From: Phycisphaera mikurensis NBRC 102666
GTDB lineage: Bacteria > Planctomycetota > Phycisphaerae > Phycisphaerales > SM1A02
Assembly (NCBI GenBank): GCA_945890745.1
Contig: CAMDCW010000007.1
Coordinates: 1-36,022, forward strand
Reading direction: 5' to 3'
Length of the DNA: 36,022 nt
Each line of letters opens with the position of its first letter. Within the stretch, counting starts at the first letter, position 1. The notes beneath the pieces are model-generated. The model worked only from the letters and a program-made list of their open reading frames with translations, ran no database searches and had not been told where the DNA came from. Below are positions 3,460-26,115 of this stretch, in pieces. A program made the position numbers and the translations under genes.

Positions 3460-4856
3460 CCGCGCCGACAGCCGATGGTGAGGTGACACGTACAGTGGAC
3501 CGGCAAATGCTCGATGATCCAACTGAAGACCGCGGTATTGCTGGAAGCCCTCCACTTTGGAATCGTGGCTTCGTTTCGCTGTTAGCAACGCAATTTGTAG
3601 AGGCGTCAACCGACAACGTGGTGAAGACGCTTCTCACCATTGCCGTGGCAGCGGGTAAGCCTTGGGAACTTGTGTTTGGTCAAGGCGGCGGTGGGTGGAT
3701 CGGCGTGGCGTTTACGGTGCCGTTCATCTTGCTTTCGGCGTGGGCAGGGCGCATTGCCGATCGCAATTCCAAACGCTCCGTGACGGTGGTCTTGAAGTTG
3801 GCGGCGTTTGGGGTAGTGATTCTGGCTGCGCTCGGATTTGGATTTGGCCACGCATGGCTAGCCATGGCCGCGTTGATTTTGTTTGCCATCATCAGTGCGT
3901 TCTTTGGTCCAGCGAAATACGGGATGATTGCGGAGCTGGTGGCGCGCCGAGAGATTGCGCGCGCGAATGGCGTGATCAATATGGCCACGAATGTCGCCGT
4001 GATATTCGGCGTACTTCTGGCAGGCATCTTGGCCGATCACTGGGAGGAGAGCTTTGTTGCTCCTGGCGGTACTGTGGATCCGGGCGGCAGCGCATCGATT
4101 GCAGCAGCGACGATGGGCGCATGGTTCCCAGGAATTGCACTGGCGGTGCTCGTACTTGTTGGCTTCCTGACGTGCTTAACGCTGCCGCGGTTGCGGCCGC
4201 AGATGCCCTCCTTGCCGCGTGCGTGGAATCCAATCAGTACCTATGTGACCACCATCCGCGAAATGTCGCACTCGCCACTTCTTGCAGTGGCTCTCGCGTG
4301 GACATTCTTCTACTTTGCGGCAGCAGTGGCGCTTTTGGTGCTCCCGGATTATTCGCAGATTCTTGCCGTCTCGAACGCCAAGGTGAGTTACTTGATGGGT
4401 GGCCTGGGAGTTTCGATCGGCGTGAGTTGTGTGCTGGCGGCTTGGCTTGATCGTCCGCATCGACGCCGGTTCTTTGTGCCCGCCGGCGCGCTTGGACTGG
4501 CCGCTGGATTTCTTGCGCTTGGACTGGTGACGCCCACGTACACCAACGTTGCAATCCTGGTGAGTTGCACGGGTTTGGTAGCAGGCTTCTACATCATTCC
4601 CTTGCAGAGCATGTTGCAAATGCTGGCGCCGGACGAGTCGCGCGGGCGATGCTTGGGAACCGCCAACGGAATGAGCTTCATGATGGCGGCGATCGGTTCA
4701 GCCATGTTTCTTGGCTTGCGTAATACAGGAATGGAATCGAACCGAATCTTTGCGGTCCTGGGTGCGCTCTGCGTTGTGGCGGCAGTGATCACCTGGTGGC
4801 GTTTGTGCCGCAAGGATCTGAGTGGCAAGCGCCACGCCGCGCCGCGCATTGATTAG
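3456..4856 (+). CDS. MFS transporter, LplT/Aas-like (putative lysophospholipid flippase)
   Basis: A 466-aa polytopic membrane protein with about 12 hydrophobic segments. The segment FFGPAKYGMIAELV followed by ARANG is the hallmark of the LplT branch of the major facilitator superfamily and of the membrane domain of Aas acyltransferase fusions. Those proteins flip lysophospholipids across the inner membrane for re-acylation. No acyltransferase or acyl-ACP synthetase domain is fused or adjacent here, so the substrate is uncertain. The start is GTG 3456: a strong GGAGG (3444-3448) lies 7 bases upstream and the GTGA overlap couples it to the cyclophilin gene. The stop overlaps that of the chloride channel gene on the other strand, leaving no room for a terminator. 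Confidence 0.85.
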   Translation: MTAPTADGEVTRTVDRQMLDDPTEDRGIAGSPPLWNRGFVSLLATQFVEASTDNVVKTLLTIAVAAGKPWELVFGQGGGGWIGVAFTVPFILLSAWAGRIADRNSKRSVTVVLKLAAFGVVILAALGFGFGHAWLAMAALILFAIISAFFGPAKYGMIAELVARREIARANGVINMATNVAVIFGVLLAGILADHWEESFVAPGGTVDPGGSASIAAATMGAWFPGIALAVLVLVGFLTCLTLPRLRPQMPSLPRAWNPISTYVTTIREMSHSPLLAVALAWTFFYFAAAVALLVLPDYSQILAVSNAKVSYLMGGLGVSIGVSCVLAAWLDRPHRRRFFVPAGALGLAAGFLALGLVTPTYTNVAILVSCTGLVAGFYIIPLQSMLQMLAPDESRGRCLGTANGMSFMMAAIGSAMFLGLRNTGMESNRIFAVLGALCVVAAVITWWRLCRKDLSGKRHAAPRID

Positions 4857-20564: not shown

Positions 20565-21329
20565 GTGCTCCAGCGGATTGAAATCTCGCAGGTTGGTCGC
20601 GTCTATGACGACGGCTTTGTCGCATTGGCCGGCGCCTCGTTTGATATTCGCGCTGGTTCGATGACGGTCCTGGTGGGGCCATCCGGTTGTGGAAAGACCA
20701 CGCTGCTTCGGTTGATCGGCGGACTTGATCATCCCACAAGCGGCCGCGTGATCTTTCATGGTGCTGCCGGTGCGCTGCAGCAGCCGCGTACCGCATTTGC
20801 ATTTCAAGAGGCACGTTTGCTGCCGTGGCGAACAGTGCTTGACAACGTGGCGCTGCCGCTGGAACTTGCCGGCGTCGCACCTGCTGAGCGAATCGAACGT
20901 GCCACGGCCATGCTGACACGCGTTGGACTTGGCGGTGCAACGCGCAAGCTTCCGGGGCAACTCTCCGGCGGCATGCGTATGCGTGCATCCATCGCGCGTG
21001 CGCTGGTGACCGCGCCGCAACTGTTACTTCTTGACGAACCATTCGGGGCGGTTGATGAGATTTCGCGTCATGCACTTGATGATCTCTTGCGATCACTCTG
21101 GGCTGAACTAGCAATGACCGTTGTGATGGTGACGCACTCGATTGTGGAAGCCACCTACGTTGCCGAACAGGTAGTGGTGATGGCCCCTGCGCCGGGACGC
21201 ATTGTTGCGCAGTTCACGCCGTCATTCGCCCATCACTCCCCGTTGTTGCGTGCTACTCCTGAATTTGCTGCAGTGAACGCTGAAGTGCTGCGCTCCTTGG
21301 GCGAAGCCATGGTGGGGGCGCAGCGATGA
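20565..21329 (+). CDS. ABC transporter ATPase, NitT/TauT type
   Basis: Energises import through the adjacent permease. Walker A GPSGCGKTT (38-46), Q-loop Gln81, signature LSGGM (133-137), Walker B LLLLDEP (153-159) and switch His191 are all present, so it should be active. Sequence style (FQEARLLPWRTVLDNV, SRHALDDLL) is that of the nitrate/sulfonate/thiamine-precursor subfamily. 254 aa is the usual length. It overlaps the permease gene by ATGA at 21326-21329, so the two are translationally coupled. GTG start without Shine-Dalgarno. Confidence 0.92.
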   Translation: MLQRIEISQVGRVYDDGFVALAGASFDIRAGSMTVLVGPSGCGKTTLLRLIGGLDHPTSGRVIFHGAAGALQQPRTAFAFQEARLLPWRTVLDNVALPLELAGVAPAERIERATAMLTRVGLGGATRKLPGQLSGGMRMRASIARALVTAPQLLLLDEPFGAVDEISRHALDDLLRSLWAELAMTVVMVTHSIVEATYVAEQVVVMAPAPGRIVAQFTPSFAHHSPLLRATPEFAAVNAEVLRSLGEAMVGAQR

Positions 21330-22147
21330 GTAGAAGCGATTCCAAGCGCGCGGTGCCGCCAGTGTCGTCCGTTGTGATGCGTGCTGCGCAGGCAGTGGTT
21401 CCATCGTTGACGGTGGTCGTGGTGTTGCTGGCGGCGTGGCAGGGCGCCGTGTCACTCTTTGCGCCGAGCGAGTTTCTGGTGCCCGCGCCACTGGCAGTTG
21501 TTCATGCCATGATTCAATCACGTCACGCGCTCCTGGCAGCGGCGTGGATGACTGGTAGTAGTGCGGTGCTTGGATTTCTGATGGCTGCAGTCATCGGCGT
21601 GACGCTGGGCAGCATGCTGGCAGCGAGCAAGTTTCTGATGCGCGGGCTGTACCCCATTGCCACGCTCTTACAGATGGTGCCACTGGTGGCGATCGCGCCA
21701 CTGTTGGTGGTGTGGTGCGGGTACGGAGCGCGAACCAGTATTGCCAGTGCAGTGATCGTTTCAGTTTTTCCGGTGCTTGCGGCCACGCTTGATGGAATGC
21801 GTTCCACGGATCTTGGGTTGGTGGAACTCTTTGCAGTGAATCGCGCCTCGCGTTTGCAGCGGTGGTGGAAGTTGGAGTTGCCGTGGGCGATTCCGTCCAT
21901 CGTCACCGGGCTGCGCATCGCCGCGGGGCTCTCGGTCATCGGCGCGATTGTTGGAGAATTTGTTGGTGCGTTCGCTGGGGATCAGTCGCCGGTAGGAATT
22001 CTGATTGTCAGTGCTATCCGCGAAAATCGCACCGATCTGGTGTTTGCCGCAGTGAGCGTGGCCGCCCTGGTGGGGTTCGCGCTCTTTGGGGTGGTCAGTC
22101 TGGTGGGTTGGATTTTGCTGCGTCGGTGGCATGCCTCGGCGGGGTGA
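21326..22147 (+). CDS. ABC transporter permease, NitT/TauT type
   Basis: Inner-membrane channel of the importer, 273 aa with about six transmembrane helices. The cytoplasmic coupling loop (EAA-like motif) is around NRASRLQRWWKLELPWAIPS followed by I-V-T-G-L-R-I-A, as in SsuC/TauC/ThiX proteins. The start overlaps the ATPase stop. The substrate-binding protein gene follows after 18 bases. Confidence 0.92.
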   Translation: MSRSDSKRAVPPVSSVVMRAAQAVVPSLTVVVVLLAAWQGAVSLFAPSEFLVPAPLAVVHAMIQSRHALLAAAWMTGSSAVLGFLMAAVIGVTLGSMLAASKFLMRGLYPIATLLQMVPLVAIAPLLVVWCGYGARTSIASAVIVSVFPVLAATLDGMRSTDLGLVELFAVNRASRLQRWWKLELPWAIPSIVTGLRIAAGLSVIGAIVGEFVGAFAGDQSPVGILIVSAIRENRTDLVFAAVSVAALVGFALFGVVSLVGWILLRRWHASAG

Positions 22148-22153
22148 CCGCGC

Positions 22154-22159
22154 TAGGCT
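22154..22159 (+). promoter_or_regulatory. Putative internal -10 element (TAGGCT) before the substrate-binding protein gene
   Basis: TAGGCT, then 6 bases (tcccgc), then the ATG at 22166. It would allow extra leaderless transcripts of the binding protein, which is usually needed in excess over the membrane subunits. Confidence 0.4.
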
Positions 22160-22165
22160 TCCCGC

Positions 22166-23173
22166 ATGAATATTGACCGCCGCAAACTACTGATCGGTTT
22201 CATTCTTGTTGACGCAGTGGTGGTGTCCCTCATCCTGCTGTACGTGCTGAATCGCCCGAACGCAGGTGTTGCGAACACCGCCAGTGGCGAGCGTGTTCGT
22301 ATTCAATTGAATTGGGTTCCCGAGCCGGAATTTGGCGGTTTCTACGCTGCGTTGCAAGACGGGCTGTATGCGCAAGAAGGCATTGACGTGGAGATCATCA
22401 AAGGTGCGGCAGGAACGCCCGCGCCGCAGATGGCTTCAAGTGGGCAGGTGGAGTTCGCCATTGCATCGGCAGATCAGATGCTCACGCTCAATGAGAAGGG
22501 CGGCGATCTCACGGCTGTGTTTTCTGTTTTCGAGACCAGCCCGATGGGCATCATGGTGAAAGCCGATGCGCCGTGGACTTCATTGGAAGAGTTGTGGAAG
22601 TCAGACGCAACCGTAGCGGTGGAAGCGGGGCTGCCGTACCTCAAGTACCTGAGCAAGAAGATTCCGGATAGCAAGGTGCGCATCGTTCCCACCGGCGCAG
22701 GGCTTGCAGGATTTGAACGTGGTGCGGTGCAGGGGCAGCAGTGCTTTGTCACCGCGGAACCGGTGCAGATGGAACTGAAGAAGGTTCCGGTGCGGGTGTT
22801 CTCACTCGCTGCAAGTGGCTACGACCCGTACGCCGTGTTGGTGGTGACCAAGGCGTCATGGCTGGCTGAGCACCGAGAAGTGGCAGCAAAGTTAGTGCGC
22901 GCCTTGCGCGGGGGTTGGACGCGTTACCTGGCGGATCCTGCCAAGTACAACGTTGAGATTTCCAAACTCAATCCGGCCATGAGCGTCGAAGCGATGAATA
23001 TTGCTGCAGAAAAACAGCGCGACCTCGTGGCCCCGCCCGGAACCGGGGCGCACGAGATCGGCAGCATGAGCAGCGAACGTTGGACGACGCTGGTCGCTCA
23101 ACTGCAAGAGTTAGGGACTATCAGCAAGCAGCCCGCGTCGATTGACGCCGTGTTCTGGAACGCCCCGAAGTAA
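22166..23173 (+). CDS. ABC transporter substrate-binding protein, NMT1/THI5-like, membrane-anchored
   Basis: Binds the imported molecule outside the cytoplasmic membrane. The N-terminus (RRKLLIGFILVDAVVVSLILLYVL) is an uncleaved-looking anchor without a lipobox Cys. The mature part begins RIQLNWVPEPEFGGFYAAL, then G-L-Y-A-Q-E-G-I-D-V-E-I, the signature of the NMT1/THI5-like family that binds pyrimidine thiamine precursors, riboflavin precursors or other small nitrogen-containing compounds. The conserved fold continues with SSGQVEFAIASADQML. Substrate is not certain: no thi genes or TPP riboswitch are near. The last 53 bases overlap the 3' end of the oppositely oriented surface-protein gene. 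Confidence 0.88.
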   Translation: MNIDRRKLLIGFILVDAVVVSLILLYVLNRPNAGVANTASGERVRIQLNWVPEPEFGGFYAALQDGLYAQEGIDVEIIKGAAGTPAPQMASSGQVEFAIASADQMLTLNEKGGDLTAVFSVFETSPMGIMVKADAPWTSLEELWKSDATVAVEAGLPYLKYLSKKIPDSKVRIVPTGAGLAGFERGAVQGQQCFVTAEPVQMELKKVPVRVFSLAASGYDPYAVLVVTKASWLAEHREVAAKLVRALRGGWTRYLADPAKYNVEISKLNPAMSVEAMNIAAEKQRDLVAPPGTGAHEIGSMSSERWTTLVAQLQELGTISKQPASIDAVFWNAPK

Positions 23174-23807
23174 GAAACGCGAGCATCATCGGTACCAACG
23201 CAGCGGGCGCTGGGACGAGATTCGCCTCAACCCAAGCGGTGGCTGCGCCGTGCGCTTCCTCCGATTCATTCAGGTTGAGCACTGCCCAGAAGGTGTCGCT
23301 GGTTGCGTAGCCCTGTGCGCCCATGGTGAATGAGACGAGGTAGATGCCGTTGGCCGGATCTGCGCCGCCGGTACCGAGGAGTGTGTACTCGGGGTGCAGG
23401 TCAAGGCCTTGCGACACAAGGAAACTGAACGAACCACCAGCGATGCTCGATGCATCCTGGCCGGCATAGGAAGCCAACATGGAATACGGCGACGCGGTGT
23501 ACCCACTGCCGTTCCAGACGCTGATCCCCTGGAGCAGGTTCATCGTGAGCGTGGTGCCTACTAAGTCTGATCCGATTCCTGGTGCATCACCGGAGAATGG
23601 GAACAGCGGGTCAAGGCCAAGTTCACCTTCAAAGACGCGAAGCGATGGGGCGATCACTTCGCCAGTGATGTGGTCCCATCCGCCGGTGACAAGCGAACCG
23701 CCGAGTGCGGTGACCCAGATATCTGCATGCGGCTCCTTCTTATCTGCGAAGGTCACTGATGCAATGGAGGCGGCAACGATGGAAGAGACAATGAAAGTAC
23801 GTGACAT
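23121..23807 (-). CDS. Secreted protein with PAPA-type C-terminal sorting signal, all3515-like
   Basis: A 228-aa protein with a signal peptide (about 1-21), a mature domain, and a tripartite C-terminus: VPAPAAL (198-204), a short hydrophobic stretch and an Arg-rich tail (216-225). That tail architecture marks PEP-CTERM-like exported proteins processed by an exosortase-type enzyme. The mature domain (HADIWV, LVTGGWDH, VRVFEGELG-like, ISVWNG, GIYLVSF) parallels the neighbouring dockerin protein and recalls, from memory, the Zur-repressed all3515 PEP-CTERM family. His27, His46 and His138 could bind metal. Start ATG 23807 has AGGAG 9 bases upstream. Its C-terminal 17 codons are antisense to the ABC binding-protein gene. 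Confidence 0.75.
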   Translation of the reverse strand: MSRTFIVSSIVAASIASVTFADKKEPHADIWVTALGGSLVTGGWDHITGEVIAPSLRVFEGELGLDPLFPFSGDAPGIGSDLVGTTLTMNLLQGISVWNGSGYTASPYSMLASYAGQDASSIAGGSFSFLVSQGLDLHPEYTLLGTGGADPANGIYLVSFTMGAQGYATSDTFWAVLNLNESEEAHGAATAWVEANLVPAPAALVPMMLAFLTSGRSRTRRQSTRAAC

Positions 23808-23866
23808 GATGAGAAACTCCTGAAAGAAAGGGAATGAAAAGAAAGAAGTGAACAAAGGGAGGTTGT

Positions 23867-23886
23867 GCAACATTGTGATGTGTTGC
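23867..23886. promoter_or_regulatory. Inverted repeat GCAACA-N8-TGTTGC, candidate operator or weak terminator
   Basis: A perfect 6-bp dyad with an 8-base spacer lies 60 bases before the ATG of the PAPA-sorted protein and 32 bases after the stop of the dockerin protein. There is no U-tract in either direction. Its symmetry would suit a dimeric repressor such as a Fur/Zur-type protein, but it does not match a known box. The rest of the 110-base gap is purine-rich on the plus strand. Confidence 0.3.
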
Positions 23887-23917
23887 GTAGGGTTGAGTGA
23901 CAGCGCACTGGCTTGCA

Positions 23918-24724
23918 TTAAGGACACGCCCCCCATGCGCCGAGCATCGTGCCGAGATCAGCACCATCAACAGCGCCGCTGTTGTCAAGATCTGCGCTGC
24001 CGGACAATCCCCATGCACCAAGAAGCATGCCAAGATCAGCGCCATTCACGGTTTGATCACCGTTGAGGTCGCCAATGCAAGCTGGTGGATTCATGGCGTC
24101 TTGTGCCGCTGCAAATGCCTCGTCAAAGGTTGCCTGTGATGCACCACCATTCAAAATGATCCAGTACTCCTGCGAGGGCAGCAGTGTTGGCGAGGTGGAA
24201 TACATCTCAAACGGTGCCAGATACACGCCTACATCGGGCGTTGCCGAGCCTGCCGCTGGCTGCAATGTCATGGAAAGATGCCGATGCCAACCGCCATCGG
24301 ATTGCACTGCAAGATCAAAGCCAGCAACCGGACCGCTTGAACTTGTGGCATTGGCGGTGAGGTAGGAGATGCGCAGACGTTCGCCAGTAAGTGGGCCAGC
24401 AGCGGATGTTTCCACAAATGTGGCGCCATCCCAGACCAAGATTGGTCCAGTAAATCGGAATCCGATTCGGGTGCCGGCTGCGAAAGTTCCAGGTAAGGCG
24501 TCATAGCCTGGATTGCTAGTGAACCACGTGGAACCCGTATCACCGAACGCGCCAGCAAAGACGCGTTGGTCTTCGCCGTATCCGGTAGCAGTCACAGCCG
24601 TCGTGGCTACGCGACCGTCCACGGTCCGCAAGCCAATATCACCCGTGTGTTGTGCGGATGCGGAAGCCGCGGCAGTCAGGATGACCGCAAAGCACGTGCT
24701 GAGCGATTGAATGTGAAGTTGCAT
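23918..24724 (-). CDS. Secreted protein with C-terminal dockerin-like EF-hand pair, paralogue of the neighbouring surface protein
   Basis: A 268-aa protein with a signal peptide (about 1-24, ending SASA-Q). The mature domain (26-200) has the same landmarks as the neighbour at 23121: H-T-G-D-I-G-L, ILVWDG, WHRHL (His147, His149), VGVYLA and YWIILNGG. The C-terminus holds two 22-residue calcium-loop repeats, GDLNGDQTVNGADLGMLL (from 218) and ADLDNSGAVDGADLGTML (from 244), flanked by Cys216 and Cys267. Such repeats are common in planctomycete secreted proteins, usually outside cellulosomes. The ATG has GGAG 7 bases upstream. A run of 10-bp repeats lies just upstream of its leader. Confidence 0.78.
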   Translation of the reverse strand: MQLHIQSLSTCFAVILTAAASASAQHTGDIGLRTVDGRVATTAVTATGYGEDQRVFAGAFGDTGSTWFTSNPGYDALPGTFAAGTRIGFRFTGPILVWDGATFVETSAAGPLTGERLRISYLTANATSSSGPVAGFDLAVQSDGGWHRHLSMTLQPAAGSATPDVGVYLAPFEMYSTSPTLLPSQEYWIILNGGASQATFDEAFAAAQDAMNPPACIGDLNGDQTVNGADLGMLLGAWGLSGSADLDNSGAVDGADLGTMLGAWGACP

Positions 24725-24750
24725 GTCATGTCTCCGTAATTGATGTAGTG

Positions 24751-24800
24751 ATGCAGATCAGTGCAGATCAGTGCAGATCAGTGCAGATCAGTTCAAATCA
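24751..24800. repeat. Five tandem 10-bp units (gtgcagatca)
   Basis: Units start at 24751, 24761, 24771, 24781 and 24791. The middle three are identical, the first differs at one base and the last (gttcaaatca) at two. The array lies 27-76 bases upstream of the dockerin gene start and runs into the last codons and stop of the pseudopilin gene. The 10-base period places each unit on the same face of the helix. Confidence 0.9.
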
Positions 24801-25558
24801 GGGTCGAATTTATTTTCCTGCATGCTGCGATAGACATCCTCAAACTGCAGGGTGCCAACGTGCCCATCCACGAACGCATAATTGCTCTGGCTTCCGCTAC
24901 CAGGAGTCCGCCGGTCGATCGCATTGATCTGTACCTGCGAAGCCGCGGTCTGGGCGGGGTCTGGGCTTGAAGCCCAGTCCTCGATATGCGGATGGTCGGC
25001 CGAGGCAAAGCTGCCTTGTTCCGCCATCAGCAGGAAGCAGACGATCCGGTCAGGATTCTGCACCTGCTGAAGCCGGTCGGCACCTGCTCCTGGTCCATCA
25101 AGGGCAACCAGTGGGGAGTAGGTGCGCGAGAGGTAGTTGTTCATTCCATAGCTGGTTCGTCGATACAGCGCGGGAGTGCTGTTGCCCACGGGTTCGCCTT
25201 CCCCACCAGCCTCAAGTGGCCAGTGCGGACTTTGATCAAGCGGACTCTTCAGCGCAATCGGGCTATTCCCGAAGTACGGGCGGAGCCGTTCGACAAACGA
25301 GTTCTGTGCATTGGCAAACGAACCGTGCGGAAGTCCAACATCGACAAACCGTTCCTCGTTCATATTGATGTAGGCAAAGTGTGCCACAGTGAGCCCGCGG
25401 AGGTTCGAGAGATCTGCCGTTGCTAAGGCTGTACGCCGCGCGCTGGAGATCGCCGGAATCATGACGCCCGTGAGGACGCCAATGATGCCGATGACAACAA
25501 GTAACTCAATGATGGTGAATGCCGAGCGTTGCGCTCTGCAGTCAAAACGAGAATGCAT
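24788..25558 (-). CDS. Type II/IV pseudopilin-like protein (DUF1559-like)
   Basis: A 256-aa secreted pilin-like protein. The class III signal is a short basic leader ending R-S-A before FTIIELLVVIGIIGVL; Glu18 is at position +5 of the mature protein as required for assembly. The residue before the cut site is Ala13 instead of the usual Gly, which prepilin peptidases tolerate less well. The C-terminus has NYAFVDGHVGTL, the VDG motif of the planctomycete pilin family with the H-x9-DG region. Start ATG 25558 is chosen because it gives the short leader; AAGGT lies upstream. Stop codon lies in the 10-bp repeat array. No pilus assembly genes are in the window. Confidence 0.8.
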   Translation of the reverse strand: MHSRFDCRAQRSAFTIIELLVVIGIIGVLTGVMIPAISSARRTALATADLSNLRGLTVAHFAYINMNEERFVDVGLPHGSFANAQNSFVERLRPYFGNSPIALKSPLDQSPHWPLEAGGEGEPVGNSTPALYRRTSYGMNNYLSRTYSPLVALDGPGAGADRLQQVQNPDRIVCFLLMAEQGSFASADHPHIEDWASSPDPAQTAASQVQINAIDRRTPGSGSQSNYAFVDGHVGTLQFEDVYRSMQENKFDPDLN

Positions 25559-25671
25559 ATGGATGCCGACCTTCAGCGTTCTGCTGATGCAGAAACGCAA
25601 TGTGTGCGTAGAAGTGTCCGTGCGCACGAGCGCCGGACGGCATTGCCCTTCAGGCAACGCGGCACATCAGG

Positions 25672-26115
25672 TCAGCAGGTTGGGGGTGGTCGAGCCGCGA
25701 GCGCCGAGATCGGCAGCGGTGCAGCACTGCGCGCGGGTGCCGGCCAACTAACAACGGCTACAAGCGCGTGGAAGGCTGGTACAGGTACCTCAGCACCCGT
25801 AGTGGTTGCGAGCGTCAGAAGCAGTTCGCAGGTGGCGCAGGTGGATTCGTCGTGCTGGTGTGGGGCAGCAGCATGATCGCCGTGACCATCATGATCACCA
25901 TGACCATCGTGATCATCATGATCACCACTGCCGTGATCGCTAGGGTTACGAGCCGTATCGTCGTGGTGAGCGTGCTCCGTGTGGCTTGCGCAGGCAACGC
26001 GGGCGTGCCCGGCAGTTGATTCGGCCGTCAGATGCAGCGCTCGAAGACCAACTCCACCCGCCGCGACGAGGGTCACGGTGATGAGTGCAAGCAGGAATCG
26101 GAGGTTTCGTGGCAC
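25672..26115 (-). CDS. Histidine-rich single-pass membrane protein with CxxC
   Basis: A 147-aa protein. A transmembrane segment (about 5-25) is followed by a linker and a region with 14 His between 37 and 88, mostly as D-H/G-H repeats (for example GDHDDHDGHGDH), then C-A-T-C (93-96) and a second hydrophobic stretch (about 107-116). This composition is typical of Zn/Ni/Cu-binding loops; transport or metal buffering at the membrane is inferred, not shown. No family is recognised. GTG 26115 is chosen because it starts the protein just before the transmembrane segment and a TACACT box ends 9 bases upstream. Same strand as the pseudopilin (113 bases away), divergent from the DNA methyltransferase. 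Confidence 0.65.
   Translation of the reverse strand: MPRNLRFLLALITVTLVAAGGVGLRALHLTAESTAGHARVACASHTEHAHHDDTARNPSDHGSGDHDDHDGHGDHDGHGDHAAAPHQHDESTCATCELLLTLATTTGAEVPVPAFHALVAVVSWPAPARSAAPLPISALAARPPPTC

Follow-up and report, generated by a model that had tools for sequence, protein, structure and literature searches.

The stretch of DNA analysed here (the window; 36,022 nucleotides of contig CAMDCW010000007.1 from Phycisphaera mikurensis NBRC 102666) carries four genes on the minus strand whose function is, most likely, the extracytoplasmic capture of zinc, in an operon that is not described in the literature searched. In the order of transcription they encode a His-rich membrane protein (P4), a prepilin (P3) and two secreted proteins, Z1 and Z2, that define the Z family. 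Judged from sequence and gene neighbourhood, the cluster is probably an operon for zinc acquisition outside the cytoplasm that is linked to Zur. An initial annotation had read the four genes as a metal-responsive surface assembly, perhaps for zinc, with the secreted pair resembling the all3515 family; its outline is right, while the family assignment is wrong. The source genome of the window (contig C7; 2.7 Mb) is 90% complete, and its named relatives are mostly Planctomycetota/Phycisphaerae assemblies. Gene calls and translations place all four genes on a single strand over the range that had been claimed, and the features are as follows.

25672..26115, minus strand: P4, His-rich CxxC protein with a single hydrophobic segment and an ARPPP tail, DUF2946-like
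24788..25558, minus strand: P3, prepilin/pseudopilin subfamily (PF07963, TIGR02532) with an invariant D-H-x-H and then W195
24986..24997, minus strand: D188-H189-P190-H191 of P3, candidate metal ligands (D188, H189 and H191 are invariant in prepilin alignments)
23918..24724, minus strand: Z1 (P0002), secreted beta-sandwich protein with a C-terminal dockerin-like domain (sequence and AlphaFold model)
24278..24286, minus strand: H147-R-H149 of Z1, candidate metal ligands together with H26 (invariant in 35 Z1-type sequences)
23921..24091, minus strand: dockerin-like C-terminal domain of Z1, residues 212-268 (structure match 2y3n_B)
23121..23807, minus strand: Z2 (P0001), paralog of Z1 with a hydrophobic/basic PEP-CTERM-like tail (VPAPAALVPMMLAFLTSGRSRTRR)

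The gaps P4/P3, P3/Z1 and Z1/Z2 are about 114, 63 and 110 bp. The gene for P4 (147 amino acids) has a GTG start at 26115, the end given by the initial annotation, and is probably the first gene of the operon. Z1 and Z2 are 268 and 228 amino acids long, the latter starting with the ATG at 23807 and not at 23936.

Of 121 related genomes, 67 have homologs of P0001, frequently as tandem pairs or triplets, and in all 40 loci that were fetched with their flanks the prepilin gene is followed by one to three Z genes. The landmarks of the Z proteins and the gene order are therefore conserved far beyond chance, and the synteny holds in the relatives. Stop and start codons overlap in several of the loci. 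Prepilin and Z genes are adjacent in 67 of the 69 genomes that possess both, and no genome with a Z gene lacks a P3-type prepilin; since Z had served to select the loci behind the prepilin profile, this test of co-occurrence is not fully independent. A P4 homolog lies upstream of the prepilin gene in about 25 of 41 loci (partly judged by eye). Gene calls in the relatives are simple ones made for this analysis, and some of these genomes are fragmented. Among 392 genomes sampled from the phylum, matches to the Z core are confined to the order of the window and one further family, in the latter at G129:C295:7642 and G214:C65:9125. No relatives were found on plasmids.

The link to Zur comes from the flanks of the module in relatives. 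A Fur-family gene adjoins it in 8/41 loci from six genera (G020, G026, G035, G046, G061, G062, G068 and G081), for which the estimated chance is about 1e-15 with genomes taken as independent and 5e-12 by genus; distant Fur genes on the same contig (G063 and G015) were left out of this count. The operator ATTGrCAAnnnnTTGyCAAT is found before the prepilin gene of seven loci as a tandem palindrome, with a period of 24 bp in six and 23 bp in one, and two further loci have one copy before the prepilin gene and another before Z2. Whole genomes contain one to four such sites (at most two mismatches), and reversed-pattern controls return none in nine of ten genomes. In G068 the box precedes a ZigA gene (610.8 bits, equivalog cut-off 600) as well as the prepilin gene and Z2. 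Zur control is well described for COG0523 genes, of the ZigA kind (PMC2770081), and the Fur protein next to the module is presumably Zur.

Further Fur-type sites and genes were observed in the relatives. The Fur-type box recurs as a perfect copy in G015 (L077 3545), just before a gene (3610-4266) for a Cys-rich membrane protein of the MerC family (PF03203) that may also belong to the regulon. In G051, G003 and G057 (L116, L117, L119) a ZigA-like gene has a Fur gene divergent from it, and in the first two a dissimilar candidate operator, TGCrAACGCATTCCCATyTGCAA, precedes the ZigA-like gene and was not seen before the module. Near the Fur gene of G026 (L108 1283-3139, plus strand) a long open frame contains a HHAGHHHHHHHDHAHGHGHDH run that leads into a serine-hydrolase-like domain (by eye).

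The protein all3515 is now named ZepA; it is an exoprotein that binds zinc, is under Zur repression in Anabaena and has the zinc motif H-x(2-9)-H-F/Y-H (PMC10957091). A search of the 392 Planctomycetota genomes with NF040463 picks up one strong ZepA, in G100 (273 bits, cut-off 75), where prepilin, Z, ZepA, Fur and His-rich CxxC protein genes follow each other on one strand (L087/L105). A second one, in G487 of the same family (L121; 256 bits), lies directly behind a Z gene (hhalign 98.6%, E 1e-15), such that both ZepA genes found in Planctomycetota have a Z-family gene as their upstream neighbour (2/2). Membership of Z1 and Z2 themselves in the ZepA family, the lead given by the initial annotation, would agree with a gene neighbourhood of the same type in relatives, the signal peptide and the CTERM-like tail, but is barely credible. 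Neither P0001 nor P0002 matches NF040463 at E<=1 (curated cut-off 75 bits), only one of 67 Z family members reaches even E 0.062, and hhalign of Z against a real ZepA gives a probability of 0.4%. The ZepA motif is absent from P0001 and P0002 when these are read directly. Sequence profiles thus refute membership, and two genomes carry ZepA and Z as neighbouring, separate genes.

Transport genes adjoin the module in other relatives. On the same strand behind it, G117 and G052, which belong to different families, have genes for a LolD-type ATPase, a MacB/FtsX permease and a DUF3299-type protein, with a peptidase gene intervening in the run of G052. The G117 protein matches DUF3299, and its G052 counterpart is 49% identical to it over 149 residues. 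In Vibrio, zrgC, zrgB and zrgE are parts of a Zur-repressed zinc transporter (PMC9820375, PMC9817125). Behind the module of G071 are genes for MntR (154.6 bits, cut-off 153), a ZnuA-type substrate-binding protein (PF01297, 202 bits) and ABC-3 permeases. In G119 the module is followed by ATP-binding cassette (ABC) and permease genes that were not counted, as they appear to belong to another type of transporter.

Z1 and Z2 are indeed paralogous, with a BLASTP E value of 5e-5 in a single comparison, and in a tree of 67 homologs the first-position and later-position Z genes form two old lineages (6 label changes versus 22 in shuffles). The initial annotation had listed the same order of landmarks in both proteins. 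This order is kept across the 67 homologs, which show little or no variation in H-x(2)-D, PG, W-x-G, a strand that carries His, and G-x-Y, but the proposed H-rich strand is H-x-H in Z1 and the single H138 in Z2. Both types taken together retain PG and one His without exception, while H26, D29, H147 and H149 are present in each of the 35 Z1-type sequences.

The AlphaFold models of Z1 and Z2 have a predicted local distance difference test score (pLDDT) of 92 and 89, respectively. Their core is a beta-sandwich for which the best fold matches are the FimH/FmlH lectin domains and pilins, at background level (Z score about 7, root-mean-square deviation (rmsd) 3.5-4 Å). The C-terminus of Z1 adopts a dockerin fold (2y3n_B, Z score 9.6, rmsd 1.8 over 57 residues; VIA), its sequence scoring 13.9 bits against PF00404, under the cut-off of 22.9. 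Among the 67 family members, 30 match the GC-type dockerin model NF041540 and 28 match PF00404. The PEP_CTERM model TIGR02595 is matched by 11/67 and not by P0001: the tail of Z2 has the shape of a PEP-CTERM without the PEP, and Z1 ends in its dockerin-like domain instead of such a tail. Compared with NCBIfam, the Z consensus gives no match for the Z1 core and only weak tail-region matches for Z2; no solved structure related to Z by sequence was found, and a search of a viral library with Z returned nothing at E<=0.001.

The pseudopilin of the initial annotation is supported. P3 scores above the cut-offs of the prepilin N-terminal methylation and cleavage motif models, with 21.8 bits for PF07963 (cut-off 21.2) and 17.7 for TIGR02532 (cut-off 16.3). 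All aligned sequences contain E18, G79, D188-H189-x-H191, W195 and D231-G232, and H78 is present in at least 90%. A prepilin profile search gives one strong match to this subfamily in most genomes, in which prepilins are otherwise numerous. Four head-to-tail copies of a 10 bp unit (agtgcagatc-like) lie at 24750-24792, from the last part of the prepilin gene into the gap before Z1.

P4 is, as annotated, a His-rich membrane protein with a CxxC motif (CATC); its one hydrophobic segment is N-terminal and its tail is ARPPPTC. In an alignment of 19 sequences H28, which follows the hydrophobic segment, C93, C96 and the PP of the tail are invariant. DUF2946 (PF11162) is matched by 16 of the 19 homologs (best E 2.7e-6); P4 itself scores 16.7 bits, under the Pfam gathering score of 23.7, and is thus not assigned to DUF2946. 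Its score of 25.8 bits with the ZrgA model NF047873 is far from the cut-off of 185 and comes from the His-rich stretch only, so that P4 is not classed as ZrgA. There is also a weak match to the CopL family. With these resemblances, P4, the Z proteins and the MacB-type ABC transporter could be imagined to buffer or export excess zinc or copper outside the cell and thus to serve detoxification instead of uptake, as the first gene of the Zur-activated czrCBA/zntA efflux operon of Caulobacter encodes a DUF2946 protein (PMC4176598) and the relatives of MacB are exporters. We regard this as quite unlikely: the links to ZepA, ZigA, the ZnuA-type substrate-binding protein and DUF3299 all belong to uptake or starvation systems, and no efflux pump is recognised among the conserved neighbours.

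The zinc-capture reading is based on the physical linkage in relatives to Fur with its tandem operator, to ZepA, to the ZigA box, to Zrg-like genes and to an MntR/ZnuA-type importer, together with the invariant His residues of P3, Z1 and P4. Of the metal-linked surface assembly put forward in the initial annotation, the link to a metal, probably zinc, is borne out in relatives by ZepA in two genomes, Fur in eight of 41 loci, Zrg-like genes in two genomes, MntR with a ZnuA-type protein in one and an operator shared with ZigA, and the all3515 membership is lost. The same genes could also be seen as a general surface or biofilm assembly of a pseudopilin and dockerin- or CTERM-anchored proteins that has no role in metal handling and lies near metal genes by chance. 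Prepilins and dockerin/PEP-CTERM proteins are numerous in planctomycetes, the beta-sandwich of Z is a generic fold close to those of pilus adhesins, and most loci have no classical metal gene adjacent to them. Repeated independent metal linkages, a common operator and invariant His motifs nevertheless make such an assembly very unlikely.

Several observations weigh against the zinc-capture reading. Regulation by Fur and the operator is seen by comparison in the relatives and not at the window locus, where neither the operator nor a Fur gene was found, and in the relatives the operator and the adjacent Fur gene occur mainly in loci that lack the His-rich gene. For the adjacent Fur proteins the top-scoring models are those of PerR/Fur, with scores under the cut-offs, and NCBIfam does not decide whether these proteins are Zur. 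The sole Fur match of the window genome (G000:C3) does not have the usual HHH/CxxC site and was rejected as the regulator for this reason. The same genome gives no strong ZigA match, and within the genus no operator is shared between the module and its own ZigA promoters. No ABC-3/ZnuA importer was found at the window locus, nor does the window genome match PF01297 or PF00950. Of the proximity to zur and znuABC, neither part applies to the window's own locus, and it is in relatives that the Fur-family gene (8/41 loci) and MntR with a ZnuA-type protein (one locus) are neighbours. Finally, with MntR as the neighbour in G071, manganese is possible. The module might then take up manganese, or several metals, rather than zinc, and the G071 set of an MntR equivalog, a substrate-binding protein and ABC-3 permeases also resembles manganese systems. 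This is a single locus, while ZepA and ZigA indicate zinc, and NCBIfam matches the G071 substrate-binding protein best, with a score under the cut-off, to the zinc protein AztC; uptake of manganese is distinctly improbable.

For zinc capture the following mechanism can be envisaged. Low zinc would derepress the operon, and Z1 and Z2 would be exported by Sec and bind zinc through their conserved His residues, H26, H147 and H149 in Z1 and H27 and H138 in Z2 being the candidate ligands. Retention at the surface would be provided by the dockerin-like domain for Z1 and by the PEP-CTERM-like tail for Z2. The prepilin may be displayed or polymerised by the machinery of type IV pili or type II secretion, where it could act as a zinc carrier through D-H-x-H or assist in exporting Z1 and Z2. 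The His-rich membrane protein would take zinc at the inner membrane and hand it to an importer, which would be of the Zrg-like or ZnuA type in genomes with such genes next to the module. We infer zinc binding, surface display and a prepilin fibre. A more specific arrangement, in which prepilin and Z proteins form a zinc-scavenging appendage, i.e. a type IV pilus-like or pseudopilus fibre with zinc-binding subunits that is controlled by Zur and passes zinc to a His-rich membrane relay, is unlikely.

Two other sets of genes flank the operon in the window. An NMT1/THI5-type ABC transporter (ATPase, permease and substrate-binding protein; 20565-23173, plus strand) is convergent with Z2, the end of its substrate-binding protein gene overlapping Z2 by the last 53 bp. 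The block of this transporter and a methyltransferase accompanies the module only in the window's own genus and in one other, and as this adjacency is part of a larger conserved block, the transporter was not counted as a partner. An N6/N4-type DNA methylase gene (PF01555; 26126-27076, plus strand) is divergent from the operon, and TATACT-like -10 boxes are present in the intergenic region of several members of the genus.

Zinc uptake in planctomycetes is little described. Beyond the ZepA survey, our searches of a large open library turned up no publication that deals with a Zur regulon in planctomycetes or with pseudopilins in relation to zinc. Two unannotated families, Z and the dedicated prepilin subfamily, are defined by the module and linked through it with ZepA, ZigA, Zrg-like genes and an operator of the Fur type. 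The genes that share the run of ZepA in G100 are concrete candidate partners, and the idea of a dedicated extracellular assembly for zinc capture is now directly testable in cultured Phycisphaerae.

Parts of the module resemble known systems. The DUF1559-like prepilins of planctomycetes have the N-methylation motif and a C-terminal DG-type motif in common with P3. Unlike these, P3 comes from a separate subfamily that is tied to Z genes, is mostly present in one copy and conserves H-G and D-H-x-H. P4 shares a single hydrophobic segment, a His-rich middle, CxxC and an RPP-type C-terminus with the DUF2946/CopL-type proteins (PF11162, NF033807), but falls below the Pfam cut-off and has a fixed place before the prepilin. 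The LolD-type ATPase, MacB/FtsX permease and DUF3299-type protein of G117 and G052 have the make-up of zrgC, zrgB and zrgE in the ZrgABCDE system of Vibrio (PMC9820375, PMC9817125). In contrast to that system, the module has no match to ZrgA (DUF2796) beyond the His-rich stretch of P4, Z would take the place of ZrgA and the Zrg-like genes are absent from the window locus. Like ZepA/All3515 (NF040463), the Z proteins are secreted and beta-rich, with a CTERM-like tail in Z2, and in relatives they have a Fur-family neighbour and a zinc-related context; they differ in having neither detectable sequence or profile similarity to ZepA nor its motif, and in that a prepilin of their own and the His-rich CxxC protein go with them.

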